A stretch of 64,000 nucleotides of DNA from an uncultured Thermoanaerobaculum sp. (GCA_937934115.1 CALHAH010000015.1:124001-188000); one strand, 5' to 3'; shown: positions 34,737 to 45,935, counted from the stretch's first letter. The notes: generated by a model not told the origin, from the sequence alone. Made by a program: numbers and translations.

Positions 34737-36650
34737 GTGGGAAGAGCGTGGGTAACATTTGGGCTCAGTCTCCTGCTTTTGGCGTGCCAAAGCGTAGCGC
34801 CACCGTTGGGGAACCGCGGCCAAAAGGCCCTGGGGTTGGTGGCCCAGGCGCAGTTTGAGTTGGCTGAGGGGCGGGTGGAAAGGGGTCTTTCGCTGTTTGC
34901 TGAGGCCCTGCGGCTGGATCCCACCTCGGCAGAGCTGCGAGAAGAGTACGGCTTGGCTTTGGCCAACCTGGGCATGCGCGAGCACGCCTTGGCGGAGCTT
35001 CGACGTGCGGCCACGCTTTCCCCCGAGGGGGAGGCGGTGCTGGGGCTTTTGGCGGCCCAGGGCGCGGCTTCCAGGGAGGAGCTGGAACAAGCGGTAGTGC
35101 ACCTGGAGAAGGGGGTGGCGTTCGCGCCTTACGCCGACAAGGTGCGGCAAGGCCTCATCGAGGCTTACCTCAGATTGGGGCAGGGTGGCAAGGCGTGGGC
35201 TTTGCTGGAACCCCTCCTGGTGGAGCACCCGCAAAGCCCTTGGCTGCAATTGATGGCTGGGCAAGCTCTGCGGCAACTGGGGCGGCTTGCCGAGGCGGAG
35301 GCGCACCTGCAACAAGCCCGGCAGGTTCCTGAATTTGCAGCGCAAGCCACGGGTGAGTTGGTGGAGGTTTTAGCCCAACAAGGAAAATTCAAAGAGGCCT
35401 CATCGCTTTTGGGAGAGGCCATCCGCCGGGGCGGGGAACCAACCCTTCCCGGCTTGGTGCGGTGGGCGACGCTTCTTCTGCGGGCCAAGGATGAGGCAAA
35501 GGCGGTGGAGGTTTTGGATGAGGCCCTTTTGCGCGATCCCGATTTCACCGATGCTTTGATTCTGCGGGCAGCAGTTGCTTTCCGCCAAGGAAAGGCTGAT
35601 GAAGCGGAGCACTTTTACCGCCGGGCGTTACTTTCCGCCCCCGAGGACCCGGATGCCCTCTTGGGTTTGGCGCGCCTTTATTTGGAGCTGCGCCGGTTTC
35701 GAGAAGCTAGGCCGCTTCTGGCCAAGACACGGGAGGTGGTGGCAAAGCACGAGGACGCCCTGCCGGGTGCAGGGTTGGAAGTGGTGGAGGAGCAAGCGGC
35801 TTTAGAGCTTTTAGCGCGGTCTTACGAGCAGGCACTGCCGTTTCTTCAGGAACTGGCGAAGAAGCCGCTGGGACGTCGGGGCTTGGCGTTGTGGGCTGAG
35901 TACTTCCGAGCTCAAGGGCAGTGGGTGCAAGGTTTGGCTTTTCTTGAGAGCGCACGAGTGACGCAAGAACCTCAGGTGGGGCGTCTCTTGCGGTCGCTTA
36001 AGGCTGAGTTCTTGCTGTTTGCGGGAAATCGCCAGCAAGCCTTGGCCGAGCTTTCAGCCATGTCTGAAAGTGAGCTGGAGGAGGCCCGGTTGGCGGTGGG
36101 TACCGCCATGCGCGGCAAGCTCTACCAGGACGCCGTGGCGTGGGCGCGAAAGGCGTTAGCGCGCTTTCCTGGGGATGGCGAGCTCACCTTTTCGCTGGCT
36201 GCTGCCCTCGAGCGCGCGGGCCAGTTTGCGGAAGCTGAGAAGGTTTTTCGCCAGTTGTTGGCCGCCGAACCGGAAAACGCAGCGGCGCTCAATTACCTGG
36301 GCTACATGTTTGCAGACCGCGGGGAAAACCTCGCGGAGGCCAAGGAGCTCATTGAAAAAGCGGTGGCTCTCGATCCGCTGTCCGGTGCGTACTTAGACTC
36401 TTTGGGGTGGGTCTACTTCCGGTTGGGGGACTGGGATCGGGCCGAAAAATACCTGACGCAAGCCGCGAGTCTCGAGCCTTTCGACGCTACCGTGCATGAA
36501 CATTTGGGCGACCTCTTCCAAGCTCGCGGCCAGGTGGAGAAGGCCAGGGCTTCTTGGCAGCGGGCTTTGGAGCTGAAGCCCGACGAAGAAGGCCAGGAGG
36601 AGCGCCTTAAGGCCAAGCTGGCGGGGCTTGCCCATGCGCCATCTCCTTAA
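34737..36650 (+). CDS. TPR-repeat lipoprotein
   Basis: 637 residues from GTG 34737, chosen because GGAGG lies 5 bases before it and the product begins GRAWVTFGLSLLLLACQS, a lipoprotein signal peptide. A longer start at 34707 is less likely. Many TPRs fill the chain (for example GRVERGLSLFAEALRLDP and GRLAEAEAHLQQA); the last ones (NYLGYMFADRGENLAEAKELI) match those of outer-membrane TPR proteins. It probably works in the periplasm as a protein-interaction scaffold. The LolB-like gene starts within its last 17 bases. Confidence 0.82.
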   Translation: MGRAWVTFGLSLLLLACQSVAPPLGNRGQKALGLVAQAQFELAEGRVERGLSLFAEALRLDPTSAELREEYGLALANLGMREHALAELRRAATLSPEGEAVLGLLAAQGAASREELEQAVVHLEKGVAFAPYADKVRQGLIEAYLRLGQGGKAWALLEPLLVEHPQSPWLQLMAGQALRQLGRLAEAEAHLQQARQVPEFAAQATGELVEVLAQQGKFKEASSLLGEAIRRGGEPTLPGLVRWATLLLRAKDEAKAVEVLDEALLRDPDFTDALILRAAVAFRQGKADEAEHFYRRALLSAPEDPDALLGLARLYLELRRFREARPLLAKTREVVAKHEDALPGAGLEVVEEQAALELLARSYEQALPFLQELAKKPLGRRGLALWAEYFRAQGQWVQGLAFLESARVTQEPQVGRLLRSLKAEFLLFAGNRQQALAELSAMSESELEEARLAVGTAMRGKLYQDAVAWARKALARFPGDGELTFSLAAALERAGQFAEAEKVFRQLLAAEPENAAALNYLGYMFADRGENLAEAKELIEKAVALDPLSGAYLDSLGWVYFRLGDWDRAEKYLTQAASLEPFDATVHEHLGDLFQARGQVEKARASWQRALELKPDEEGQEERLKAKLAGLAHAPSP

Positions 36651-37293
36651 ATTGGTTCTGATCCTTTCCGTGGGGTGCACCGCGGCGCCAATAGGGTTGC
36701 CGGATTTCTCGCAGTTGCAGGGGAAAGCGCCGTCCTTTCGCGCCTTGTACCGCGTGCAGTGCTGTCAAATGCGGGGACTTAACTTGGTGGTGGCCCACGG
36801 GGAAGGGGGAACCCTAGTGGAATTGGCGGGGGGGCCCTCGGGGGTGGGTTTTGCCGCCTGGGTCACGGGCCAGGAGGTGCTCCAGCGCACGGAGCAGGGG
36901 TGCTTGCGGCCTATGGGATGGGGGGGCCTACCGCTTCCTGATGGGTGGGTTCTTCCGGTTTCCCAGGAGGTTTTCTCCAGCCTGCTGGCGGGGCGCTTAC
37001 CAGTTGGGGGCCAACAGGTGGCCGTGGATCGGTGGTCGGTTAGTGTGGCAGGCGGTCGCCTCGAGCTGGAGGTGGCTGGGGAACCTACGCGTTGGGTGCG
37101 AGGTTGGCTTTGGGCTGAGGGGAACTCCCACCCGGTGCGCTTCATCGCCCAAGGGCACCACGGTAGGGTTCCTGGTAGACTGCACGTGCTCGCGCCCAAT
37201 GGCCAGCTGACACTTGTGCTTTTGGAATTCCAGCCGGTAAAAAGCGTGCCGGCGCCCCCTTGGCTGGGGCTTCCTCGCTGCCAGGTGCCATGA
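36634..37293 (+). CDS. Predicted LolB-like/DUF4292-type lipoprotein
   Basis: 219 residues. A signal peptide ends in LSVGCTA (lipobox weak at the -3 position). The mature protein is nearly all beta strand with a pattern (FRALYRVQCCQ, LVVAHGEGGTLVELAGGPSG, VRFIAQGHHGRVPGRLHVLAPNG) like the half-barrel of LolA/LolB. In gammaproteobacteria lolB also stands next to ispE, as here. LolB receives lipoproteins from LolA and inserts them in the outer membrane. The call rests on pattern and context, not on a clear motif. Confidence 0.55.
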   Translation: MRHLLKLVLILSVGCTAAPIGLPDFSQLQGKAPSFRALYRVQCCQMRGLNLVVAHGEGGTLVELAGGPSGVGFAAWVTGQEVLQRTEQGCLRPMGWGGLPLPDGWVLPVSQEVFSSLLAGRLPVGGQQVAVDRWSVSVAGGRLELEVAGEPTRWVRGWLWAEGNSHPVRFIAQGHHGRVPGRLHVLAPNGQLTLVLLEFQPVKSVPAPPWLGLPRCQVP

Positions 37294-38231
37294 AGCGAAT
37301 CGTGGTGCGATGCCCTGCCAAGGTAAACCTCCATCTAGAGGTTTTGCGCCGACGCCCGGACGGCTATCACGAGGTGCGAACGCTTTTAGCAGCAGTGGGG
37401 CTTTGGGACGAGCTGGAGGTGGTAGCAGCGCCGTCAGGGGTGTGGGAGATGCAGGTGGAAGGTGGTGTAGTTCTTCCCCGCGAAAACACGGTTTGGCGTG
37501 CGGCCCAGCTCCTTGCCCGCGCTTTTCCGGAAGTAGGTGGAGCGAGGGTGGTATTGCGTAAGAGCATCCCGGTGGCGGCGGGCTTGGGGGGTGGATCGGC
37601 GGATGGGGCGGCCGCTTTGGTGGCTTTGGCGAATCTTTGGGGTTTGGCGACAGATCCCGCCCAGCTTGTAACTTTGGCTGCGCAGTTGGGTTCCGATGTC
37701 CCGTTTTTCCTTCTCGGAGGGGCTTGCTGGGCCACGGGCAGAGGGGAACAGGTTGTGCCCCTACCCGACCTTCCAAGTTATGGAGTGGTGTTGATCCCAG
37801 GGCACGAGCCGGTGTCCACGCCGGTGGTGTACAACGCTTGGGACAAGAGCCAATCCCCGCCCAGGGTAACGGAGACGTCAGGGGCCGAAGTTTCTTCCTG
37901 TGGGCCCGGTCCTGGTGGTGGGACCGAGGGAGCCGGGGGTTTTTCCCTCTATGATTGGCTGGTAAGGCGAGGCGAGCTGCCGTTTGCCAAGCTGCGCAAC
38001 GACTTGCAGGGTGCGGCGGTAGAACTTTTTCCGTGGATTGCTGAGAACTTGGCTGTGCTTACGCGCTTGGCACCGCTTGTAGCCATGGTTTCCGGTAGCG
38101 GAGGGACAGTTTTTGGGGTTTTTGGGGACGAAGAGGAAGCGAGGCGGGTAGCCGCCGCCCTTGCGGATAGGCGTGCGGTAGCGGTCCCGCTCCTCCCCCG
38201 GCGGGAGTCCCAGCTTTTACCTATGGGCTGA
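37290..38231 (+). CDS. ispE: 4-diphosphocytidyl-2-C-methyl-D-erythritol kinase
   Basis: 313 residues, GHMP kinase. CPAKVNLHLEVLRRRPDGYHEV near the N-terminus and the ATP loop PVAAGLGGGSADGAAAL near residue 95 are intact, with the late MVSGSGGTVFGVF loop. It phosphorylates the MEP-pathway intermediate on the way to isoprenoids. ATG 37290 overlaps the upstream stop (ATGA). A Gly/Ser-rich insert sits at about residues 185-225, where the family is usually shorter. Confidence 0.95.
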   Translation: MKRIVVRCPAKVNLHLEVLRRRPDGYHEVRTLLAAVGLWDELEVVAAPSGVWEMQVEGGVVLPRENTVWRAAQLLARAFPEVGGARVVLRKSIPVAAGLGGGSADGAAALVALANLWGLATDPAQLVTLAAQLGSDVPFFLLGGACWATGRGEQVVPLPDLPSYGVVLIPGHEPVSTPVVYNAWDKSQSPPRVTETSGAEVSSCGPGPGGGTEGAGGFSLYDWLVRRGELPFAKLRNDLQGAAVELFPWIAENLAVLTRLAPLVAMVSGSGGTVFGVFGDEEEARRVAAALADRRAVAVPLLPRRESQLLPMG

Positions 38232-38245
38232 AGAGGAGGCTTACG

Positions 38246-38599
38246 ATGGAAATCACCGAAGTTCGGGTTAACCTCAACCGCCAAGGGCGGGTGAAGGCTT
38301 TTGTCCAGGTGGTTATTGACAACGCTTTGCTGATTGGCGATATCCGCGTCATGGAAGGCAAGGAGGGAACGCTGTACGTGGCCATGCCTTCCCGAAGGCT
38401 TCGCAACGGTGCCTTTAAGGACGTGGTCCACTTTCTCTCCCCCGAGGCCCGCCGTCAGCTGGAGGAGGCTGTGCTTGCCGAGTACCAGCGCTTGGCTCAG
38501 GAACTGGGGGATCCTGCCGTGCACCCACGGTTGCGGCAGGCTCTCCAGAAACTCTTGGGCGAGCAGTACTGGAGCGGGGAGAGTTTTGAAGACGAGTAA
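38246..38599 (+). CDS. spoVG: SpoVG family protein
   Basis: 117 residues. The conserved EITEVRVNLN, LLIGDIRVMEG, YVAMPSRRL and PEARRQLEEAVLAEY are present. SpoVG binds nucleic acids and affects division and gene expression in Firmicutes and spirochetes; here it follows ispE by 14 bases, an order also seen in Bacillus (ispE-purR-yabJ-spoVG region). The stop is followed at once by the palindrome that controls the next operon. Confidence 0.95.
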   Translation: MEITEVRVNLNRQGRVKAFVQVVIDNALLIGDIRVMEGKEGTLYVAMPSRRLRNGAFKDVVHFLSPEARRQLEEAVLAEYQRLAQELGDPAVHPRLRQALQKLLGEQYWSGESFEDE

Positions 38600-38601
38600 C
38601 A

Positions 38602-38624
38602 AACTTGTCATGAGTTGACAAGTT
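38602..38624. promoter_or_regulatory. 23-bp perfect palindrome, predicted operator of the cytochrome operon
   Basis: AACTTGTCA, 5-base spacer, TGACAAGTT. The right arm contains the TTGACA -35 box, so a dimeric regulator bound here would block or help polymerase. It does not match the consensus of FNR or CRP. No regulator gene is adjacent. An intrinsic terminator is unlikely, as no T run follows. Confidence 0.6.
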
Positions 38625-38643
38625 GTGATGTTGTTCTTAAATT
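38615..38643 (+). promoter_or_regulatory. Near-consensus promoter of the cytochrome operon
   Basis: TTGACA (38615-38620), 17 bases, TAAATT (38638-38643), 21 bases before the ATG of the 11-heme cytochrome gene. Confidence 0.7.
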
Positions 38644-38664
38644 CACGGCGGAGGGGAGGGCCGG

Positions 38665-39885
38665 ATGAACCCCAGTAGGTACCGCCTGTGGGTGATACTT
38701 GTTATTTTTTTAGCAACCACCGCCACGACCCCTGCTGGCGGCGAGGAGTGTCTCGCCTGTCACGGTAGCGGGGAGGATTTGCAGATGGCGGCTCAAAGTT
38801 TGGGGCTAGAGTTGTCCGCTCGTCGGGTTTCGGCGTTGGTGGTCACGCTGGGTACGGAATCGGTGCACGCTAGCTTGGCGTGTACAGATTGCCATCCTCA
38901 GGCTACCGAGGTGCCCCATCCCCAGGGCATGTCCCGTACAAACCCTTGTGTTGCCTGCCACCAGGACGCGGGGGATGCTGTGAGTCGGTCGGCACACAAA
39001 GACCCCTTGGGGCGTGGGAGCTTCCGTGCGCAGTGCTGGCATTGTCACGGTGCGCATGACGTGCGACCGAGTAAAGACCCCGAATCCACTTTGGCACCGG
39101 CTAACGTTGCTGGCACCTGTCTTCGTTGCCACAACAAGCAGGAGTATCTTCAAGGCGTCCACGGCCACGGTGTGCAGCTTGCTGGCCTCGACCTCGCTGC
39201 CACTTGTATTTCCTGCCACGGCGGACACGACGTTTTGCCGGCCAGTGACCCCGCTTCTCATGTTCACCGTCTTAACGTGCCCAAAACTTGCGGGAAGTGC
39301 CATAGGCGAGTTACGGAGGTGTACGTCACGTCGGTGCACGGGCGAAATTTAAGTGCGGAAAACGCAGACGTCCCCAGCTGCATTGACTGTCATGAGGCCC
39401 ACGGCATATTAGACCCGCGGTTGCCACGCTTTCGCAATGTTTCACCGAAAATGTGTGCCCGTTGCCATGCCGACCCGAAAATTGTCGCAAAGTACGGATT
39501 GCGAGCTGAGGTTTTTGATACGTACGTCGCAGATTTTCATGGCACCACCGCTGAGCTTTTTGTGGCCACAAGCCCTGACCAACCTTTAAATAAAGCTGTG
39601 TGCTACGACTGCCACGGCTATCACGATGTGGAATCGGTTCGGCAATTGGGCACCGAAAGAGTGCAGGAGCGCCTCTTGCAGCGCTGCCAAACCTGTCACC
39701 CCCGGGCCAGCAAAACGTTTTTGTCAGCTTGGACGGCCCATTACACACCGGACCGGGAACGTTATCCCTGGATTTACTACGTTCGCCTCTTTTACCAAGT
39801 GGTTATTCCCTCCACCATTGGGTTTTTCCTGGCTTACATTGCCCTGGATATTTGGGGCCGACGCCGACGTGGGAGGCATCAATGA
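38665..39885 (+). CDS. Undecaheme c-type cytochrome with C-terminal membrane anchor
   Basis: 406 residues. A signal peptide (LWVILVIFLATTATTPAGG) is followed by eleven CXXCH heme sites: CLACH, CTDCH, CVACH, CWHCH, CLRCH, CISCH, CGKCH, CIDCH, CARCH, CYDCH and CQTCH. A single helix at about 378-397 (VVIPSTIGFFLAYIALDIWG) ends in a positive tail RRRRGRHQ, giving a periplasmic head tied to the inner membrane. Its stop overlaps the start of the b-type cytochrome gene by 4 bases (ATGA), so the two likely form one complex taking electrons from or to quinone. Confidence 0.88.
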   Translation: MNPSRYRLWVILVIFLATTATTPAGGEECLACHGSGEDLQMAAQSLGLELSARRVSALVVTLGTESVHASLACTDCHPQATEVPHPQGMSRTNPCVACHQDAGDAVSRSAHKDPLGRGSFRAQCWHCHGAHDVRPSKDPESTLAPANVAGTCLRCHNKQEYLQGVHGHGVQLAGLDLAATCISCHGGHDVLPASDPASHVHRLNVPKTCGKCHRRVTEVYVTSVHGRNLSAENADVPSCIDCHEAHGILDPRLPRFRNVSPKMCARCHADPKIVAKYGLRAEVFDTYVADFHGTTAELFVATSPDQPLNKAVCYDCHGYHDVESVRQLGTERVQERLLQRCQTCHPRASKTFLSAWTAHYTPDRERYPWIYYVRLFYQVVIPSTIGFFLAYIALDIWGRRRRGRHQ

Positions 39886-40664
39886 AGGCGGGACAGATCC
39901 GAAGGTTTTCCACCTGGCAGGTGGCAAGTCACGGGGTGATGGTTTTTTGCTTTACGATTCTGGCTTTGACGGGGCTCCCCCAAAAGTACCCCGAGCACAC
40001 ATGGGCTCGCGGCCTAATTTTAGTCTTTGGGGGCGTGGAGCGAGCCCGCTGGCTTCACCATGTATGCGGCACCATTATGGCGGTGCAGCTCGTGATTCAC
40101 GCCGTGGAGCTGCTGTGGCTGCATCTAGTGCGCCGGTACCCGGCCACCATGCTGCCCCGGCTTAAGGACATCCAAGACTTTTTCCAGCAGGTACGGTACA
40201 ACTTAGGCCTAGCTGCTGAACCTCCCAGGATGGACCGCTACACGTTCGCAGAAAAAATTGAATACTTGGCTTTGGTTTGGGGAACCGTATTGATGGTGGT
40301 AACCGGCCTAGTGCTCCTCTATCCCATCCGTTGGGCGGAGCTCCTCACCGGCCAAGGGATCATTGCCGCCAAAACTGCCCACGGCGGCGAGGCCTTACTG
40401 GCGGTACTTTCCATTGTAACGTGGCACAGTTACTTTGTGCACCTGCGGCATTTCAACAAATCCATGTTTAACGGTTACCTAGAGGAGGAGGTTTACGCTG
40501 AAGAACATCCCTTGGAGCTGGAAAAAATCCGCCAAGGTCTTCAGCCCAAACCACAGCCGGCAAGCGTGGGTCGTGTGCTTGTCTTCCTTGCCTTGGTGGC
40601 TTTCGTGGTGTTAGGGAGCCTTTGGCTTTTGTGGTGGATGCGTTGGTCCCCAGGGTTGATGTGA
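39882..40664 (+). CDS. Diheme b-type cytochrome, membrane subunit (FdnI/HydC-like)
   Basis: 260 residues with four core helices and one at the C-terminus. Histidines at about 17, 59/60, 73 and in AAKTAHGG and TWHSYFVHLRHF are placed as heme b ligands of the formate dehydrogenase gamma / Ni-Fe hydrogenase cytochrome b family. It should exchange electrons with the menaquinone pool and pass them to the 11-heme subunit encoded upstream. ATG 39882 overlaps the upstream stop; a longer frame back to 39600 is a shadow of the cytochrome gene. Confidence 0.87.
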   Translation: MKAGQIRRFSTWQVASHGVMVFCFTILALTGLPQKYPEHTWARGLILVFGGVERARWLHHVCGTIMAVQLVIHAVELLWLHLVRRYPATMLPRLKDIQDFFQQVRYNLGLAAEPPRMDRYTFAEKIEYLALVWGTVLMVVTGLVLLYPIRWAELLTGQGIIAAKTAHGGEALLAVLSIVTWHSYFVHLRHFNKSMFNGYLEEEVYAEEHPLELEKIRQGLQPKPQPASVGRVLVFLALVAFVVLGSLWLLWWMRWSPGLM

Positions 40665-41137
40665 CCCACCGCAGCGCCTTGAGGTTGCGGGTTTGGCGTT
40701 GGTTGCGGAAGGGTTAGCCGCGTTGCCCGGCGGGTTGCCCTTGGCACTGAAGGTATTTGTTTGCAGCATCTGCCATGGGAAGCGGGAGTTTAAAAACGTG
40801 GCTTTGGTCGGCGCGATACGGGGACTTCTGCAGCTCGGAATACGCAAGGTCAGTAATCCGCAGTATGGATTGTTCTTTCATGCACCGGTTGTCACGGGGG
40901 CAGGAAATCTTCCCAAAAAAAGACGGCGCGGGTTTCGCCCAGTCATGGGCCACAAGCTTCGGGGGGGTGTCGTGGGTTTTTTCCGTGCACAAGAGAAAAG
41001 CTTGCCCGGCGCCAACGTCTCCTACGGGCGGAAACGTTCTCCCGTGGGATCCAAGCCACCAAAGCCGCGGCTAGGCTGTGCTGGCTTTTGAGGCAAATGG
41101 AGACGCCCCGTTGGTTTGTAAAGCCACACGCAGTAGC
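40665..41137. other. Gene-poor stretch inside the cytochrome cluster
   Basis: Three weak open frames overlap here (40693-41091 plus, 40757-41074 plus, 40714-40992 minus). The first contains one CXXCH (VCSICHG) but ends in a very basic tail unlike a cytochrome. None has a ribosome binding site or a recognisable family. It may be remnant sequence or a long leader of the next gene. Confidence 0.5.
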
Positions 41138-41166
41138 TTGCAAACTCATTCACAAGAGCCTACCAT
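41138..41166 (+). promoter_or_regulatory. Predicted promoter of the tetraheme cytochrome gene
   Basis: TTGCAA (41138-41143), 17 bases, TACCAT (41161-41166), 36 bases before the start codon. Confidence 0.5.
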
Positions 41167-41202
41167 AGATGCGGGGCAGGGGCCCCGGGGGAGGAGCCAG
41201 AA

Positions 41203-41637
41203 ATGAGAACAGGCTACGAATTGCTCGTGGGCGCTCTTTTGTTCGCACTTGCGTCCTCCGCATACGCGCAGCACAGCTACATAGGCGCAGAAAAGTGCAA
41301 GATGTGCCACAAGGTGCAGTACGACTCATGGCTGGCCACGAAACACGCCAAGGCCACCGAAACAGCCAAAGCGAGTACGCGATGGAAGTTCGATGCTTCG
41401 TGCCTTTCGTGCCATGCCACGAACAAAGATGAGGCCTTGGCTGGTGTCCAGTGCGAAGCGTGTCACGGCCCGGGCTCGGACTACAGAGCCATGTCCATCA
41501 TGAAAGACCGAGAAAAGGCCATTGCCAATGGCCTTATCGTTCCCACCCAAGAAACCTGCAACGGCTGCCATGACGGGAAGGACCACCACAAACCGGTGAC
41601 GTTTGATCGGGACCTGGTGCACGCACGCAAGAAGTAA
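41203..41637 (+). CDS. Tetraheme cytochrome c554-like protein
   Basis: 144 residues. Signal peptide MRTGYELLVGALLFALASSAYA, then YIGAEKCKMCHKVQYDSW, the common opening of cytochrome c554-type proteins. Four CXXCH sites: CKMCH, CLSCH, CEACH with the HGPG signature, and CNGCH. It is a small soluble periplasmic electron carrier. It has its own promoter and lies 78 bases before the 21-heme gene, so it may serve as the shuttle between the membrane proteins. Confidence 0.88.
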   Translation: MRTGYELLVGALLFALASSAYAQHSYIGAEKCKMCHKVQYDSWLATKHAKATETAKASTRWKFDASCLSCHATNKDEALAGVQCEACHGPGSDYRAMSIMKDREKAIANGLIVPTQETCNGCHDGKDHHKPVTFDRDLVHARKK

Positions 41638-41715
41638 AACGCGAGAACCTCAGTTGCGGACGCTCTTTCTTTTGCGCGTAGGACCATAGAACAAAAGATT
41701 GTCGGCGGGGGGAGT

Positions 41716-43668
41716 ATGGCTGGAGAAGCGTTGCAAAAAATGAGCTGGGCTAAGCGCATACAAGTCGCTGCCGTGGTGATTGCGGTAATAGCGGCAGTGT
41801 TCTTTGGGTTTCTGGAGTATACCCAGCGGCCGCAGTTTTGTGTCACATGCCACTACATGGAGCCTTATTACCAGTCTTGGCAAGAGTCCTCCCATAACCA
41901 GGTCAACTGCATTAAATGTCATTACCCCCCCGGTTTGAAGTCAGTCATTCGAGCCAAGGTTGTGGCTCTTTCCCAAGTGGTGCAATACGTAACCAAAACC
42001 TACGGCACCAAACCCTGGGCGGAGGTAGAGGACGCCGCCTGCTTGCGCTCGGGCTGCCACGAAACCCGGTTGCTTACCGGCCCTGTGCCGTTCGGGCCTG
42101 ATGGCACCATCCGTTTCGACCACTCCCACCACCTCAAGGACCTCAAGCGCGGCAAGCAGCTGCGCTGCACCTCCTGCCACGCCCAAATCGTTCAGGGGCA
42201 ACACCTTACTGTGACGCCGTCGACGTGTTTCCTTTGCCACTTTAAAAACGTTTCTTGGCAACAGGACCTTTCCCGCTGCCAAACCTGCCACGATGTCAGC
42301 AAAATCCCCGCAAGCCGCTTCGATCACCGTCATATTTTGGCTAACCAAGTGGATTGCAAACGGTGTCACGGTGACATCACCCGGGGTACGGGAGAGGTCC
42401 CCCGGCAACACTGCCTTTCTTGCCACAACGAAGCGGACCGCTTGGCGAAGTACGAGGACGTAGACCTTTTGCATTCCACGCACGTGACCAAGCACAAGGT
42501 GGAGTGCTCCGAATGCCATATTGAAATTACCCATTCCATTCGCAAGATAAGCCTTCATGAAGGTTTAAACTGTCGGGACTGTCACTCCGGGGCCCATGAA
42601 AACCAGTTGCGGTTGTACGTGGGGGTGTCGGTGGCGGAACCTCATCGAAAGGCCGAACCAAGCCCCATGCATCAGGTGAACGTGCACTGTGTGGGTTGCC
42701 ACACCAGCGAAAAAAAGCTCGCGGATGGTGGCAAGGTGCTGGCTACCACGTCAGAGTCTTGTGATACGTGTCACAGCCCGGGGTATGGGAAGATCCTTGA
42801 GGATTGGCGAGCTCTCATTGCCCGGCGCTTACCGGAGACGGAAAAAGCCATTGCTACCGTGGCTGGTGCCCTCAAGGGCCGCCCTGAAGCGCAGGCGGGC
42901 CTTAAATCCGCTCGTGCCAAGGTGGAAGAGGTGAAAGCCGGCCACGGGGTCCACAACATCGCTTTTGCCATGGCGCTTTTGGCCGAGGCCCAAAGCGAGG
43001 CTACGAGGCTGGCGCAAAAGTTCGGGCTAACGCTGGAGGTTTCCGGGGTGCCGGAGGCCAAGCTCATGAGGGACAACGAGTGCCGGCTTTGCCACTTGGA
43101 GGTTTCTTCGGCCACTTTGACCTTTGCTGGCAAGCCTTTCCCCCACGGTTCCCACGCCCGCGCCGTGGACCAGTGCACCACCTGTCATACACCTCGCTCG
43201 AACCACGGGAAAACCACCATCAAGCCCGAAGACTGCGCGCGCTGTCATGGCGGGTTAGAGATGCCGCACCCAGCCGGTTTCCGCCAGCAGGCCAAGGATG
43301 TTTTGGCTCGCGTCGGAGCTTCCGCCTGTGCCGCCTGCCACAAGGGTGAGCAAGCAAAAGCTTGCCAACCTTGTCACACCACAAACCCGGCGGATCGGGA
43401 AGTGGAGGGTGTGCGGTTTTCCCATAGCAAACACTTGGCCCATCCCGAGGTGCGCTGTGTGACGTGCCACAGCCCGTGGCCGGATCACGGGCGGGTAACA
43501 GTGACCAAGGAGGGGTGCACCCTGTGTCACGGTGGCGTCGCCATGCCTCACCCCAGGGATTGGGCGGAGACTCACCCCGCATTTTCCCGGGAAAACGGTG
43601 TGGATGCTTGCGCAAAGTGCCACACGGGGGGGATGAGCGGGGACTTTTGCGGAAATTGCCACGGGTGA
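41716..43668 (+). CDS. NapC/NirT-like membrane-anchored multiheme cytochrome with about 21 heme sites
   Basis: 650 residues. One N-terminal helix (about 16-34) and FCVTCHYMEPYYQSW give a NapC/NirT-type quinol-facing start. There are 20 CXXCH sites and one CX4CH (CLRSGCH, near residue 110). Twelve of the 21 lie before residue about 355, then a heme-free helical segment of about 90 residues containing GHGVHNIAFAMALLAEA, then nine more. Repeated units (ending CHGGxxMPHP) mark duplication in the last third. It could draw electrons from quinol and carry them across the periplasm. The stop is followed by a strong hairpin. Confidence 0.88.
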   Translation: MAGEALQKMSWAKRIQVAAVVIAVIAAVFFGFLEYTQRPQFCVTCHYMEPYYQSWQESSHNQVNCIKCHYPPGLKSVIRAKVVALSQVVQYVTKTYGTKPWAEVEDAACLRSGCHETRLLTGPVPFGPDGTIRFDHSHHLKDLKRGKQLRCTSCHAQIVQGQHLTVTPSTCFLCHFKNVSWQQDLSRCQTCHDVSKIPASRFDHRHILANQVDCKRCHGDITRGTGEVPRQHCLSCHNEADRLAKYEDVDLLHSTHVTKHKVECSECHIEITHSIRKISLHEGLNCRDCHSGAHENQLRLYVGVSVAEPHRKAEPSPMHQVNVHCVGCHTSEKKLADGGKVLATTSESCDTCHSPGYGKILEDWRALIARRLPETEKAIATVAGALKGRPEAQAGLKSARAKVEEVKAGHGVHNIAFAMALLAEAQSEATRLAQKFGLTLEVSGVPEAKLMRDNECRLCHLEVSSATLTFAGKPFPHGSHARAVDQCTTCHTPRSNHGKTTIKPEDCARCHGGLEMPHPAGFRQQAKDVLARVGASACAACHKGEQAKACQPCHTTNPADREVEGVRFSHSKHLAHPEVRCVTCHSPWPDHGRVTVTKEGCTLCHGGVAMPHPRDWAETHPAFSRENGVDACAKCHTGGMSGDFCGNCHG

Positions 43669-43710
43669 GCCGGCGGCCGCGTTTTGTCTCGGAGTTTGCC
43701 AACAAACTTC

Positions 43711-43732
43711 AAGGGCGAGCCGCCGCTCGCCC

Positions 43733-43734
<2 letters not shown>
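43711..43734. terminator. Hairpin between the 21-heme gene and guaB
   Basis: A perfect 10-bp stem (AAGGGCGAGC, loop CGCC, GCTCGCCCTT) overlaps the guaB stop codon by two bases. It can serve both convergent genes, although T runs are weak on each strand. Confidence 0.55.
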
Positions 43735-45268
<1,534 letters not shown>

Positions 45269-45281
45269 TCAAAATACCGCT

Positions 45282-45935
45282 GTGGGCGAGCGTGGGGCGT
45301 ACCGAGCGGGTTGGGTACTGGGCGCGGGATTGAGGGTTTATCGGCGTTTTCTGCGGTGGCAGGTTGTTGCCCAGGGACCCCTGCCACGACCCTGCATCTT
45401 AGCAGTTTGGCATGGAAGGCTTTTGGGGGTGCTTCTTCATCAAGCGGGTACCGGCATGGTAACCATGGCCTCGCTTTCCGCCGATGGGGCCCTGGCCGCT
45501 GGCGCGGTGGCGGCCTTGGGATGCCGGGCCGTGCGAGGCTCGGCCAGCCGTGGCGGCTCGCAAGCCCTCCGTGCTCTTAAGCGTGCTTTGGAGGCGGGCG
45601 CCCCTTTGGCTGGGCTGACCGTGGATGGACCTAAGGGACCGTGGCGGCAGGTGAAACCTGGGGTGGTGGCGGCTGCCCGGTGGTTAGGGATTCCCATTGT
45701 GCCGGCAAGCTTTTCCGGCAGCCGCGTGCAAGTTTTAGGCAGCTGGGACCGGATGGTGGTGCCGAAGCTGGCCTCGCGGGTGCTGGTTGGGTACGGGAAG
45801 CCGTTGTACCCCAATGAGTTGCCGCAAGATCTCCAGGCCGCGTGCCATCACGTAGGGCAAAGGGTTGATACCCTCACCGCAGAGTTGGACCGAAAGCTTT
45901 TGGGCTTTCCCCTTTGGCCTGAGGTGGCGGCGTGA
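45282..45935 (+). CDS. DUF374-family lysophospholipid acyltransferase
   Basis: 217 residues from GTG 45282; the start is uncertain, as the open frame extends far upstream antisense to guaB. The DUF374 landmarks ILAVWHGRLLGVLL, SLSADGALAA, RGSASRGGSQALRAL and TVDGPKGPWRQVKPGVV are present; relatives transfer acyl chains to lipid A precursors or act on lipids at the inner membrane. The exact substrate is not known. It overlaps the next gene by 4 bases (GTGA). Confidence 0.82.
   Translation: MGERGAYRAGWVLGAGLRVYRRFLRWQVVAQGPLPRPCILAVWHGRLLGVLLHQAGTGMVTMASLSADGALAAGAVAALGCRAVRGSASRGGSQALRALKRALEAGAPLAGLTVDGPKGPWRQVKPGVVAAARWLGIPIVPASFSGSRVQVLGSWDRMVVPKLASRVLVGYGKPLYPNELPQDLQAACHHVGQRVDTLTAELDRKLLGFPLWPEVAA

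Follow-up and report, generated by a model that had tools for sequence, protein, structure and literature searches.

A shortened, intact cluster of four cytochrome genes in Thermoanaerobaculum as a candidate inner-membrane electron hub

Introduction

The closest described counterparts of the gene cluster considered here are the cytochromes CbcBA, CbcL and ImcH of Geobacter. The cluster, genes A to D, lies in a stretch of 64,000 nucleotides from an uncultured Thermoanaerobaculum sp. (GCA_937934115.1 CALHAH010000015.1:124001-188000), which is referred to below as the window. CbcBA has a two-subunit make-up. The homologues of CbcL (CbcL, MtrH and MtoC) carry a multiheme c part and a membrane b part in a single chain, mostly with six transmembrane (TM) segments, while ImcH has three N-terminal TM segments adjoining an atypical CX3CH site (PMC6295460).

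Within the genus, Thermoanaerobaculum aquaticum is a chemoorganotroph that reduces Fe(III) or Mn(IV). Neither autotrophic growth nor signs of nitrate or sulfate reduction were observed in it (PMC4056298). Clusters of barrel and multiheme proteins have been proposed as its conduits for metal-oxide reduction (PMC8528874), and eight cytochromes with at least 10 hemes are reported from a T. aquaticum metagenome-assembled genome (MAG) (PMC9671151). In the main-text passages of these two papers, the A-D inner-membrane cluster is not described, nor was an account of how electrons exit the inner membrane found. The cluster is a concrete candidate for this exit, in a genus with an isolate at hand.

Composition and integrity of the cluster

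The four genes stand side by side in the genome of a heat-loving acidobacterium. They form a real and conserved electron module of the inner membrane, intact and recognisable in kind: a b/c pair next to a NapC-headed protein. An earlier note, based on the window sequence alone, had described an 11-heme anchored c protein coupled through ATGA to a diheme b protein, a soluble 4-heme protein and a NapC-like protein of about 21 sites, and open reading frame (ORF) positions, motif counts and profile matches all bear this out. Overall, the genes encode 36 c-heme sites, 35 CXXCH motifs and one CX4CH. The features of the region are as follows.

38605 to 38643, plus strand: promoter and overlapping inverted repeat, in the gap between spoVG and gene A
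38665 to 39885, plus strand: gene A, 406 aa, 11 CXXCH, export signal and one C-terminal membrane helix
39882 to 40664, plus strand: gene B, 260 aa, FdnI-type diheme b membrane subunit (PF01292) with an extra C-terminal helix
40665 to 41107, plus strand: scar of a deleted B3-A2-B2-D2 module, with frameshifted, degraded pieces of A2
41203 to 41637, plus strand: gene C, 144 aa, 4 CXXCH, exported tetraheme protein of the Cytochrome_C554 type
41716 to 43668, plus strand: gene D, 650 aa, NapC/NirT head, single TM segment, 20 CXXCH and one CX4CH
43710 to 43735, minus strand: hairpin resembling a terminator, where D and guaB converge

Apart from genes A, C and D, no ORF of at least 80 aa in the window has two or more CXXCH motifs. 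The start codon of B lies inside the stop codon of A, spoVG is found upstream of A, and guaB converges on D. As the earlier note had it, there is no sign of a terminal reductase nearby; none was noticed among the window ORFs, part of whose proteins were searched against families. A search of positions 36000-45500 against Rfam gave zero matches.

The window genome (2.42 Mb, 96.7% complete) can be compared with two others of the same genus, G302 (2.7 Mb, 70 contigs) and G422. Against G302, the four proteins share 79-84% identity and have a rough ratio of nonsynonymous to synonymous substitutions (dN/dS) of about 0.07-0.09, which is only approximate because dS is above 1. These values argue that the cluster is not a product of chance. 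Gene A is 79% identical to its G302 counterpart and about 58% identical to that of the Acidobacteria MAG L002; the best named relative of A-B-C is likewise an Acidobacteria MAG.

The promoter region is also conserved. The 65-bp gap between spoVG and A contains a sigma-70-like promoter (TTGACA-17-TAAATT, 10/12 match), whose -35 box is overlapped by the inverted repeat TTGTCA-N5-TGACAA at 38605-38621. Both the hexamers and their spacing are identical in G302, where the palindrome is kept with a compensatory change of its outer pair from C-G to T-A. The window holds a single copy of this repeat (0.14 expected with one mismatch), and it was not found in the fetched loci outside the spoVG-A site. 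A regulator likely acts at this palindrome. The number of terminators in the region, the hairpin at 43710-43735 included, does not exceed that in shuffled sequences.

A module lost between B and C

The window cluster has been cut down from an eight-gene version, which its same-genus relatives still possess. G302 has the genes in the order A, B, B3, A2 (8 hemes), B2, D2 (18 hemes, NapC-headed), C and D; together these eight carry 61 CXXCH and, like the window cluster, are flanked by spoVG and guaB. The G422 locus reads B(cut)-B3-A2-B2-D2-C-D(cut). In the window, the 540 bp between B and C are the scar of the deleted B3-A2-B2-D2 module. Three pieces of A2 (40674-40820, 40877-40923 and 41005-41058) survive in their original order and orientation but in changing frames; after them comes sequence that matches the D2 end and the stretch preceding C. 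Blastn of the pieces gave E values of 4e-6, 8e-5 and 8e-5 against A2 of G302, and 3.6e-9 against G422. The best single match in the gap scores 27, while the maximum in 200 dinucleotide shuffles is 19. Collinear chaining of all the small matches was uninformative, with a score of 163 against a shuffle maximum of 191 and 20 of the 200 shuffles reaching 163; weight was given only to the scores of single matches, the order of these matches and those found in translation. Searches with B and D2 found no further copy in the window genome.

Outgroups in the order, as well as L002, have A-B-C without the insert, which makes it probable that an ancestor acquired the module and that the window lineage later lost it. 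The four-gene set is the remainder of a larger cluster and not an ancestral unit. No described system with this gene combination was found, in agreement with the earlier note.

The loss of half of the ancestral cluster, with a degraded scar left behind, might suggest that the remaining genes are themselves a decaying, non-functional remnant. This is very improbable, given that A-D are intact and have a low dN/dS, and that the promoter and palindrome are conserved.

The b/c pair

B belongs to the PF01292 family (37.1 bits, cut-off 30.1). It also matches the formate dehydrogenase gamma model TIGR01583, although its 54.3 bits fall below the equivalog cut-off of 115.85. FdnI (1kqf_C) is the only sequence in the PDB matched by the B family profile (E 6.7e-12), and a Foldseek search with the predicted structure of B returned 1kqf_C as the sole match below 0.001 (E 8.6e-6); the second match, a hydrogenase-1 cytochrome b entry, did not reach this threshold. 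His17, His59, His167 and His182 of B are present in all 77 homologues, and His73 in 76 of them. Three of the candidate ligands align with the FdnI heme ligands His18, His57 and His155. No neighbour of the FdnG or FdnH type, that is, a catalytic or iron-sulfur subunit of formate dehydrogenase, was seen among the window ORFs.

Relatives of B (E <= 1e-10) occur in 192 of the 396 Acidobacteriota genomes sampled and were not found in the plasmids searched; a scan of the genome contigs recovered four relatives only. In a tree of the family, the window type, the D2-adjacent B2 and B3 form three supported groups (support 1.0, 0.95 and 0.93). The coupling of A to B is maintained across Acidobacteriota, and is also seen in MAGs titled Thermoflexales and Acidimicrobiia.

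The FdnI fold acts as a quinone reductase in E. coli. The module could in principle work inward, with electrons from outside the cell or from periplasmic oxidations (of Fe(II), sulfur compounds or through a syntrophic partner) reducing menaquinone via A-B. Homologues of CbcL and MtoC occur both in organisms that oxidise Fe(II) and in those that reduce Fe(III) (PMC6295460), and reverse operation has been proposed for CbcBA in Seep-SRB2 (PMC10553843). Nevertheless, inward flow seems quite unlikely, as the described member of the genus is a metal-reducing chemoorganotroph without observed autotrophy (PMC4056298), and no oxidation enzyme was noticed near the cluster.

Gene C and the NapC-headed gene D

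C matches PF13435 (Cytochrome_C554; 39.1 bits, cut-off 20.8) and is likely a periplasmic carrier. Residues 8-101 of D match PF03264 (NapC/NirT; 50.0 bits, cut-off 24.1), while its score with the NrfH model TIGR03153 is far under the cut-off (52.9 against 134.2 bits) and no NrfA partner was seen in the window. When the head of D is aligned with NrfH (2j7a), Met48 falls on Met49, the heme-1 ligand, and Lys81 on Lys82. The CX4CH site (CLRSGCH, residue 109, 42040-42060) keeps its cysteines and histidine in all aligned homologues, with different spacing in some. Among 36 aligned D and D2 proteins, this site and most of the CXXCH sites are nearly universal, and extra CXXCH motifs (residues 538, 632 and 645) occur mainly in the relatives of the window protein.

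Relatives of D (E <= 1e-30) were found in 39 of the 396 genomes. Among the fetched D-type loci (L124-L142), 11 of 19 contain a B-family gene; such loci often hold a C-like protein and further A-like proteins as well, together with genes whose names (Rieske-like, cytochrome b-like, putative cytochrome c maturation) come from a reading of the sequences. Of 15 D2-type cases, 14 have a B-family gene no more than 3.5 kb away; the fifteenth, at a contig edge, also has one. The parts of the cluster therefore recur together in Acidobacteriota. In addition, four D homologues of the f2 family (L124-L127) have lost the first NapC CXXCH, the quinol-adjacent site in NrfH, while nearly all their other hemes are kept.

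These observations bear on whether D is itself a quinol oxidase. A pair of parallel oxidases, A-B for low-potential acceptors and D for acceptors of higher potential, is suggested by the intact NapC head of D, with its CXXCHxM motif and Lys81, by the quinol dehydrogenase activity of NapC-family proteins, and by the Geobacter precedent, in which CbcL or CbcBA and ImcH are proposed to serve different acceptor potentials (PMC12307469). The absence of heme 1 from L124-L127, the near-constant b subunit beside D2-type proteins and the lack of an Asp89 equivalent in D all count against such a division, which is best regarded as doubtful. The separate quinol pathways of Geobacter, invoked by the earlier note as a parallel, are weakened as a model of two independent pathways at this locus by the co-occurrence of b subunits with NapC-headed giants and by the missing heme 1. 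That a NapC-headed giant can be retained without heme 1 favours the role of a wire, and D more probably serves as a wire tethered to the membrane than as a quinol oxidase in its own right. Since the heme-1 site of the window D is intact, this protein could also oxidise quinol directly. Heme-1 loss in one family would separate wiring from quinol oxidation in NapC-headed giants.

Possible outlets elsewhere in the genome

Family searches and fetched stretches served to sample the other redox genes of the window genome, and the picture may be incomplete. Whereas the earlier note had left the output as extracellular or an enzyme elsewhere, candidate outlets were located on other contigs. Contigs C9 and C52 each encode a decaheme protein, a 3-heme protein and a molybdoenzyme, which is nearest to TtrA on C9 and to PhsA on C52; the fourth protein of each set has 629 aa (barrel length) on C9 and 658 aa on C52. 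The two decahemes score 177 and 169 bits with TIGR03508, under its cut-off of 192.2, and neither barrel candidate (629 and 658 aa) matches a Pfam model above its cut-off. The clusters at L075:3736-9897 and L080:2717-8757, TtrA-like and PhsA-like with DmsE-type decahemes, are possible outer-membrane respiratory systems.

G302 carries a different conduit, consisting of a 621-aa barrel-length protein, a decaheme and a 609-aa 7-heme protein. This metal-type conduit is absent from the window genome at an intact syntenic site (L185, G000:C35, compared with L182, G302:C7), where the outer flanks are 78-84% identical and enclose 7.7 kb in G302 versus 0.3 kb in the window genome. Conversely, the C9 molybdoenzyme is missing from G302. 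A tie between loss of the module and loss of the metal conduit was considered and rejected: G422 has the module, yet no match to the conduit turned up in its assembly, and D2 is absent from f2 genomes that carry the conduit. The retention of the A-B-C-D hub while outlets change suggests that it has a general role, and the three genomes amount to a natural experiment in which the hub is the same, the outlets differ and the module is present or deleted.

It has to be considered whether the hub feeds soluble periplasmic reductases only, and nothing outside the cell. Both C11 and C22 encode octaheme proteins, C22 also has a gene for a NapA-like enzyme, and the window species lacks the metal-type conduit with its 7-heme cytochrome. 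On the other hand, two decaheme/putative-barrel clusters are present in the genome, a wire of about 21 hemes exceeds the need of a short periplasmic hop, and the NapA-like cluster adjoins Rieske and cytochrome b genes of its own. A purely periplasmic output is thus unlikely.

Two further loci were observed. At L077:10448-17652, Rieske and cytochrome b genes adjoin an octaheme protein, a tetraheme protein and a NapA-like enzyme. At L078:1-9982, genes read by eye resemble those for a cytochrome oxidase and for alternative complex III; the genus has been described as a strict anaerobe.

Proposed function

Based on this evidence, the cluster seems fairly likely to be an outward menaquinol-to-periplasm hub of the inner membrane, serving extracellular or periplasmic respiration. 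B, with two b hemes, would oxidise menaquinol and hand the electrons to the membrane-tethered 11-heme A, and C would be a small periplasmic carrier. The NapC-type head of D would act as an anchor for a wire of about 21 hemes, which in principle could span much of the periplasm. Electrons may then exit via whichever outer-membrane conduit a species carries, the two decaheme/putative-barrel/molybdoenzyme clusters being the candidates here. More tentatively, A-B and D might be united in one quinol-to-wire complex that is bound to the membrane and common in Acidobacteriota. D would then be a tethered, periplasm-bridging wire and not a quinol oxidase, and species would keep the hub and exchange outlets and the second module copy.

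Several points weigh against the proposed hub. The fourth candidate ligand of B is one residue off His169 of FdnI, and the predicted structures are moderate for B (predicted local distance difference test score, pLDDT, 66) and poor to the point of being unusable for A (pLDDT 45). In D, Asp89 of NrfH, a quinol-site residue, is replaced by Val88. Finally, no conduit gene is linked to the A-D cluster.

Comparison with known systems

FdnI, the cytochrome b556 subunit of formate dehydrogenase-N, shares its fold and candidate heme ligands with B. In contrast to FdnI, B has a multiheme c protein as its partner and possesses an extra C-terminal helix.

The b/c pair and NapC-like protein side by side, likely an inner-membrane quinol module, stand as the earlier note described them; their assignment to the CbcL and ImcH types does not. 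Neither family name was retained, as A and B are separate chains with no fusion, and D has one TM segment and a CX4CH site with no CX3CH. CbcBA and CbcL of Geobacter sulfurreducens likewise combine a diheme b membrane part with a periplasmic multiheme c part in their architecture. They are the inner-membrane entry point of extracellular electron transfer, and the same is proposed for A-B. CbcL has 9 c hemes (PMC9129911) compared with 11 in A, and in A-B the c protein precedes the b protein on a separate chain. The separate c and b subunits of CbcBA, encoded together, have their match in A-B with its ATGA overlap.

With ImcH and the NapC/NirT/NrfH proteins, D shares an N-terminal membrane helix, NapC-type heme sites and CXXCHxM. 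Despite this similarity, ImcH and D differ in TM segments (three versus one), in the atypical site (CX3CH versus CX4CH) and in hemes (7 versus about 21). The multiheme/beta-barrel clusters described for T. aquaticum and Ca. Sulfomarinibacter (PMC8528874) come from the same bacterial class and are outer-membrane conduits, unlike the inner-membrane A-D cluster, for which they represent the probable type of downstream partner.

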